Part shown: positions 45,407 to 46,618 of the stretch, one piece after another | How the letters are laid out: every line of letters starts with the position of its first letter | Numbering within the stretch: position 1 is the stretch's first letter | Assembly (NCBI GenBank): GCA_902624075.1 | Contig: CACNWC010000004.1 | Location: forward strand, 1-64,000 | Direction: 5' to 3' | DNA: 64,000 bases | DNA from: an uncultured Pelagibacteraceae bacterium | Lineage (GTDB): Bacteria > Pseudomonadota > Alphaproteobacteria > Pelagibacterales > Pelagibacteraceae | Program-made: the position numbers and the translations under genes | The notes under the pieces: model-generated | Seen by the model: only the letters and a program-made list of their open reading frames with translations | Database searches by the model: none | What the model was told of the DNA's origin: nothing

Positions 45407-46174
45407 TTACTTATTTAATCTTTTATGAATACTATTTAAAGTATTAATAACAGATTTATAAACACCTTTTTTACTCATTTCTTTTAAACCTTGTTCATTT
45501 AAACCTTTAGGAGTTTGAGATTCTTTTACTAAATATTTCAATTCTTTTTTATTATTTACAACAGCGTCTTCAGATAAAGCTAAAAATAAAGAAGTAATAT
45601 ATTTTTGAGAGTCTCTTCTTTGAATACCTTTTTTAACTAACCAATCACTCATTATCTTTAACATTTCATAATAAGAAGCCATCATTCCTGATGTTGACCA
45701 AAAATTGATAGATAATTTTTCATTTTTAATTTCAACTGTAGATCCTATTTTGTCAAAAAAATTTTTTACTTTTTTGTTAGGGGGACAAATTGGAACAGGT
45801 CCTTTCTTTAAAGATATTGGTGGTAGAGGTATAGCTCTAACAATATTTGCTCTTACTTTGATCATTTTTTTTAATCTTGGAATAGTTATTGTGGAAATAA
45901 AACTTATAATTGTTTGATTTGATTTAAATTTTAGATTTTTAATTATTTTTTCACCAACATTTGGTGTAATAGCTAAAAAAATCCAGTTACAATTATTTAC
46001 AATTTTTTGATTATCTTTTTCTATTGTAATTCTTTTAAACTTTTTTTTTAAGTGTTTTGAAGTTTTCTTATTTCTTAATGAAATAAATATCTTGTTATAT
46101 TTAATAGATGATTTGCATATACCAGTAATTACTGATGATGCAATTTTTCCAGTTCCAATAAATCCTAAATTCAT
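45407..46174 (-). CDS. Pyrroline-5-carboxylate reductase-like NAD(P)-binding protein
   Basis: GFIGTGKIASSVITGI, ANIVRAIPLPPISLKKGPVPI; first gene of the liv operon. Confidence 0.72.
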   Translation of the reverse strand: MNLGFIGTGKIASSVITGICKSSIKYNKIFISLRNKKTSKHLKKKFKRITIEKDNQKIVNNCNWIFLAITPNVGEKIIKNLKFKSNQTIISFISTITIPRLKKMIKVRANIVRAIPLPPISLKKGPVPICPPNKKVKNFFDKIGSTVEIKNEKLSINFWSTSGMMASYYEMLKIMSDWLVKKGIQRRDSQKYITSLFLALSEDAVVNNKKELKYLVKESQTPKGLNEQGLKEMSKKGVYKSVINTLNSIHKRLNK

Positions 46175-46201
46175 AGAATGGATACTTTATAATGAGCATA
46201 T

Positions 46202-46258
46202 AAAAAAAAAGATAGTCCTTAAAAACCGGGAGCTAAAGATGGCTAAGAAGGACTATCC
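46202..46258 (-). promoter_or_regulatory. Candidate transcription attenuator / structured leader RNA upstream of proC-livGFHM
   Basis: Perfect 10-bp inverted repeat gatagtcctt (46211-46220) / aaggactatc (46248-46257) with 27-nt loop; on minus strand immediately followed by T9 (A9 at 46202-46210); 28 nt upstream of the proC-like start. Confidence 0.65.
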
Positions 46259-46320
46259 AAGCCAATATAACAGATCCTAAAAAAAATGCATTATTCATTT
46301 TTTTCAAATATAAAGGATTT

Positions 46321-46618
46321 ATGAAAAAAAAAGGTCACAGGCCTGTTACCCGGGTCAAAAATCCTGAGCCCAAAATTGAAGATCCAGATTGGGTCATCTG
46401 GGCAGCCTGGGCCGACAGGATCACTTTTGAAGAAATTGAAAAAAAAAACTGGTTATAAGGAATCTGATGTTATTAAAATTATGAGAAGATCTTTAAAACC
46501 TTCGTCATTTAGATTGTGGAGAAAAAGAGTTCATGAAAAAAGTATAAAACATAGAAAAAAGTTTGAGTATTCTCGAAAACAAATAACTAGTAAAATTAAA
46601 AAAGGTGATTATCTGTAG
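46321..46618 (+). pseudogene. TIGR03643-like family protein interrupted by an A10 homopolymer frameshift (sequencing error, pseudogene, or frameshift-expressed gene)
   Basis: Frame from ATG 46321: MKKKGHRPVTRVKNPEPKIEDPDWVIWAAWADRITFEEIEKKNWL*; one fewer A gives EEIEKKTGYKESDVIKIMRRSLKPSSFRLWRKRVHEKS, the C-terminus of listed ORF 46376..46618. Confidence 0.82.

Follow-up and report, generated by a model that had tools for sequence, protein, structure and literature searches.

Hairpin locus and RNA family

The window, that is, the whole stretch of 64,000 nt that was analysed, carries on its minus strand a hairpin GATAGTCC...GGACTATC (sequence read directly), which is followed by a T9 tract and, after a further 27 nt (46175-46201), by the ATG (46172-46174) of a proC-like gene, while the only gene upstream is the divergent TIGR03643 gene (Table 1). 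These features, together with the TATATT hexamer in front of the hairpin, are all present as a sequence-only reading of this DNA had described them. That reading had interpreted the hairpin as an attenuator for proC-livGFHM or, as an option, as a short terminated RNA. The predicted fold has an energy of -19.3 kcal/mol, compared with -11.4 +/- 2.4 kcal/mol for shuffled sequences (z -3.3), and only one of 200 shuffles folded equally well.

Table 1. Positions of the element, its target and the genes around it
Feature	Position	Strand	Remarks
Predicted small RNA	46202-46257	-	47-nt hairpin (46211-46257) plus T9 tract
Rfam RF01814 match	46193-46275	-	predicted small RNA is the core of the match
T9 tract	46202-46210	-	turns the hairpin into an intrinsic terminator
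Loop segment TTAGCCATCTTTAGCTCCC	46228-46246	-	exact complement of the peptide-gene SD and start codon
Extended -10 element TGTTATATT	46264-46272	-	TG 46271-46272, hexamer TATATT 46264-46269; 6 nt before the hairpin
proC-like gene (pyrroline-5-carboxylate reductase)	45407-46174	-	NF005063, 1.8e-95; downstream neighbour
Divergent TIGR03643 gene	46321-46618	+	ATG at 46321; constant neighbour of the element
Target start region	G000:C1:20688-20706		outside the window; SD and start codon of the Lys/Arg-peptide gene
Loci with varied downstream gene	L010, L013, L015, L049, L052, L053, L065, L074		
Loci with varied downstream gene	L088, L095, L097, L100, L101, L112, L127		

A covariance-model search of the window identified the element as Rfam RF01814 ('rhtB'), matched over its full length (1-83) with 81.9 bits, the gathering cut-off being 55 bits, and a match to a described RNA family is what the sequence-only reading had itself named as refuting its interpretation. 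RF01814 was found in 'Cand. P. ubique' and in marine metagenomes; it consists of one bulged hairpin, located mostly beside rhtB and also upstream of proC, livM and livK, with poly-U after about half of the cases, and it was published without a function and without a target, a regulatory role, a termination signal or another role of the inverted repeat being put forward as ideas (Meyer et al., 2009; PMC2704228). The bulged hairpin with a loop conserved in SAR11, the rhtB/proC/liv contexts and the poly-U in about half of the cases are shared by the element studied here, and to this account we add a candidate target in trans, a promoter at the hairpin, and co-variation between loop and target.

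Of 397 Pelagibacteraceae genomes, 141 gave an RF01814 match, and nearly all of these belong to one genus, that of the window, where 106 of the 140 well-assembled genomes in the sample carry it. The RNA is essentially single-copy per genome, and single-copy in most Pelagibacter genomes. A match of 34.7 bits in one further genome (G161) was dismissed as an unrelated terminator-like hairpin, and 13 Pelagibacter genomes without the RNA were unusable as a sign of loss, since 11 of them are also without the TIGR03643 locus; the absence in these 13 probably reflects assembly gaps for the most part. Base pairing at the nine outer stem positions, scored over 132 relatives, fails in a single one of 1188 cells, and there are double changes from U-A to A-U, from U-A to C-G and, in G512, from C-G to U-A. 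For the loop, 119 of these relatives have exactly GCCAUCUUUAGCUCCCGG, and the others depart from it at one or two places. Conservation is thus far stronger than the sequence-only reading could have known.

An extended -10 element (TGnTAnnnN) precedes the hairpin in all 132 relatives, with a gap of 6-9 nt between the two, and from this fixed distance transcription should start at the hairpin itself. At the level of sequence, the element therefore has its own promoter and constitutes a discrete transcript unit, as is expected of a trans-encoded antisense small RNA. A T-run of at least five follows the hairpin in 45 of the 132 relatives, implying that termination is not always intrinsic; the T9 tract would end the transcript in the window genome, and partial termination or read-through would be expected elsewhere.

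A tiny Lys/Arg peptide gene and its predicted pairing with the loop

When the window's own genome was searched for the 19-mer GGGAGCTAAAGATGGCTAA with up to three mismatches, only two sites were recovered, namely the element and a site outside the window (Table 1), and the reversed pattern used as a control gave no match. A 23-aa frame, MAKRRKKAKKKAKKKAKKKRRRR, begins at the second site, and the loop core CAUCUUUAGCUCCC is complementary to GGGAGCUAAAGAUG, which comprises the ribosome-binding site and the start codon of this peptide gene. The target was revealed by weak matches (such as L073, L211 and L213-L219) which proved to be the target gene on its other strand. With a permissive pattern, which was run on 80 genomes, the true target start was counted in 68 that carry the RNA, and most of the remaining ones look like assembly gaps.

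Across the genus, the peptide gene consists of a TTGACA-type promoter, a palindrome ACGAATC..GATTCGT, the invariant GGGAGCTAAA[G/A]ATG, a Lys/Arg/Ala frame of about 20-35 aa and a strong terminator. No family match was obtained for it in Rfam, NCBIfam or Pfam, and its composition suggests that the peptide may be a polycation that binds nucleic acids or the ribosome. In the four loci examined it is flanked by an AMP-binding acyl-CoA ligase gene on one side and by a CarD-type gene, in convergent orientation, on the other. The adjoining CarD-type transcription factor gene has a Lys-rich N-terminal region (L131, L165, L168, L179). The palindrome, situated between the promoter and the ribosome-binding site and about 10-35 nt upstream of the latter (L131, L165, L179, L289 and others), is present in another SAR11 genus too; it is possibly an operator or a 5' hairpin.

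Duplexes between the RNA and its target in 24 genomes were predicted to have energies of -33 to -44.5 kcal/mol, whereas shuffled RNAs gave -14.5 to -18.5 kcal/mol (z -3.9 to -8.5). About half of the targets start with AUGCC, which introduces one mismatch just after the AUG; an uncompensated C/A mismatch is found in G154 and G180, and a G-U pair plus flank mismatches in G208. For the AACC loops of these three genomes as well as for the AUGCC targets, the mismatch lies outside the 14-nt core.

The complementarity to the distant mRNA is held by compensatory change, as would be expected of a trans-acting antisense RNA. Five genomes carry a C-to-U variant of the loop, CCAUUUUUAGC, and in all five the pairing target base is changed from G to A, so that loop CAUUUUU faces target AAAAAUG (5/5). 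Four further genomes were chosen by their target alone (AAAAATG), and each of them contained the predicted loop. When 399 genomes were scanned for the variant, 13 had the change in exactly both places and none was discordant; a further three had one component unassembled, and two unrelated sites were returned. The common loop/target pair is present in about 106 sampled genomes. By parsimony, the co-variation, which concerns one loop position, corresponds to three loop/target switches (clade supports 95, 100 and 69), a count that uses a tree of TIGR03643 and glutaredoxin, both short genes, and for which two switches, or one gain plus reversals, are also possible. Together, these comparisons strongly support the predicted pairing of the loop with the start region of the peptide gene.

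Proposed mode of action and alternatives

We consider it very probable that the element specifies an antisense small RNA which acts in trans and represses the peptide's translation. The RF01814 element would be the gene for an RNA of about 55 nt, transcribed from the hairpin's first base onward under its own extended -10 promoter and ended in the window genome by T9. The stem would present the loop, whose core would pair with the ribosome-binding site and the start codon of the separate mRNA for the 22-35-aa peptide, and the resulting duplex, covering both, would block ribosome binding and thereby repress translation. Of the two suggestions in the sequence-only reading, the short terminated RNA fits this proposal, whereas the attenuator for proC-livGFHM does not, as discussed below. 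The RNA family itself is already known; as far as we found in the literature available, the trans target and the mode of action are new, no paper naming an RF01814 target or the peptide having been found. The main text of Stav et al. (2019; PMC6429828) mentions, without details, a single small RNA and several short reading frames of strain HIMB5. An orphan RNA family of a very abundant ocean bacterium hereby gains a specific target and a mechanism that can be put to the test, and the antisense RNA has pointed to a tiny protein that is strongly conserved but unannotated.

TIGR03643, usually together with glutaredoxin, stands beside the element in 120 of 128 loci. Downstream, rhtB starts 3-15 nt past the hairpin in about 94 loci and proC lies 35-78 nt past it in 11; neither is nearby in about 20, where porin-like or other genes are found instead. 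In the different genomes, the genes 3' of the RNA thus comprise rhtB, proC, porin-like MKKIL... proteins and others (Table 1), which suggests that the site just downstream of the RNA is a spot of gene exchange. In the window, an A10 run (46439-46448) breaks the TIGR03643 gene into two frames, a split match that occurs in the window only among 129 relatives and that may reflect a sequencing error, a real pseudogene or slippage.

Since in most genomes rhtB starts no more than 15 nt past the hairpin, and most elements are without a long T-run, so that a read-through mRNA would carry the loop, the element might be put to dual use, as 5' untranslated region or partial terminator of rhtB or proC and as an RNA acting in trans on the peptide mRNA. 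Such dual use is compatible with antisense repression, but it appears rather unlikely to us, considering the loci with neither rhtB nor proC nearby and the T9 tract in the window.

A toxic Lys/Arg peptide with the RNA as its antitoxin, in the manner of a type I toxin-antitoxin pair, would be a special case of antisense repression, and a tiny peptide with an antisense RNA over its start site agrees with such an arrangement. However, both genes are core, single-copy and syntenic, and in the outgroup genera the peptide gene persists with neither RF01814 nor a matching antisense site found there, where a diverged RNA may nevertheless be present. Known type I toxins are hydrophobic, whereas this peptide is rich in Lys, Arg and Ala and is not a small hydrophobic one. 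We therefore regard a toxin-antitoxin pair as improbable.

The possibility that the element is a cis-acting attenuator, riboswitch or terminator leader of the operon that follows, proC-livGFHM here and rhtB elsewhere, has to be judged less probable still. The T9 tract and the proC ATG 27 nt beyond it, as well as the closeness of the rhtB start in most loci, would be in keeping with a leader, and rhtB is likely the ancestral neighbour, as in two other SAR11 genera rhtB (recognised by eye) is divergent to TIGR03643 with no element between them. The same arrangement makes the element look like a later arrival, and it seems to have stayed when rhtB was replaced, which speaks against cis attenuation of any particular operon. 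Moreover, the predicted start at the hairpin's own 5' base in 132 of 132 relatives leaves no room for an aptamer, a leader peptide or an antiterminator, and a leader with an alternative structure or leader peptide upstream of the terminator would be lacking. Nor is there one constant downstream gene or pathway: the downstream gene changes among the 128 loci while the loop hardly does, and a cis leader would leave the match to a distant gene and the co-variation of the loop unexplained. The proC-like gene, whose context is not conserved, is probably not the regulated gene, and the proC and rhtB neighbours are presumably mostly positional bystanders.

A DNA site shared by both loci and bound by one regulator protein would account for the same 14-19 bp at both places changing together, but this is very improbable, as the segment lies on the ribosome-binding site and AUG in the target, downstream of the promoter, and within the loop of a conserved hairpin in the element, and its antisense orientation suits RNA pairing. 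Plus-strand coding, with a short upstream frame (MAKKDY...) leading the TIGR03643 gene and its ribosome-binding site masked in the hairpin, was rejected as scarcely credible: the DNA does read CCGGGAGCTAAAG-ATG-GCT-AAG, an SD-like sequence plus ATG, but the frame is not conserved, with a stop at codon 3 or 4 in 60 of 132 relatives and divergence beyond codon 6 in the others, and the conserved promoter is on the opposite strand.

Relation to known antisense RNAs and other SAR11 genera

Trans-encoded antisense small RNAs that act on small-protein mRNAs are exemplified by IstR-1/tisB and OhsC/shoB, with which the proposed antisense RNA shares a separate gene, a stable hairpin, complementarity to another mRNA and a tiny product. 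It differs from them in that its terminator-hairpin loop would pair directly with the SD and AUG, and in that its target encodes not a hydrophobic toxin but a polycation, the product of a core gene that seems to predate the RNA. Small RNAs with CU-rich anti-SD loops in Alphaproteobacteria and Firmicutes are generic and have multiple targets. A CUCCC-type loop directed at a GGGAG ribosome-binding site is common to these and to the element, whose complementarity, in contrast, extends over as much as 14-23 bp and is specific for a single gene.

Homologues of the peptide gene occur in SAR11 genera that gave no RF01814 match, where the site reads GGGAGATAAAG or GGGAGAAAAAA. A search there for an antisense partner with the pattern GGGAGMNAAARATGG, allowing one mismatch, recognised none, and a diverged RNA is possible. 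The presence of the peptide gene in genera without an RF01814 match suggests that the peptide predates the RNA. It is conceivable, though rather less likely than not, that Pelagibacter possesses a genus-defining RNA switch which acts one-to-one and determines the dose of a protamine-like polycation of 22-35 aa binding the nucleoid or the ribosome; on this view the peptide came first, and the circuit, which originated in the space between rhtB and TIGR03643, was retained in a streamlined genome. Few regulators are known in SAR11, so that a small-RNA circuit dedicated to one target and spared by genome streamlining would be informative. In the RNA-bearing genus, GGGAGCUAAARAUG is fixed, and all of the matches listed for the 19-mer in GTDB genomes belong to Pelagibacter, Pelagibacteraceae or Pelagibacterales.
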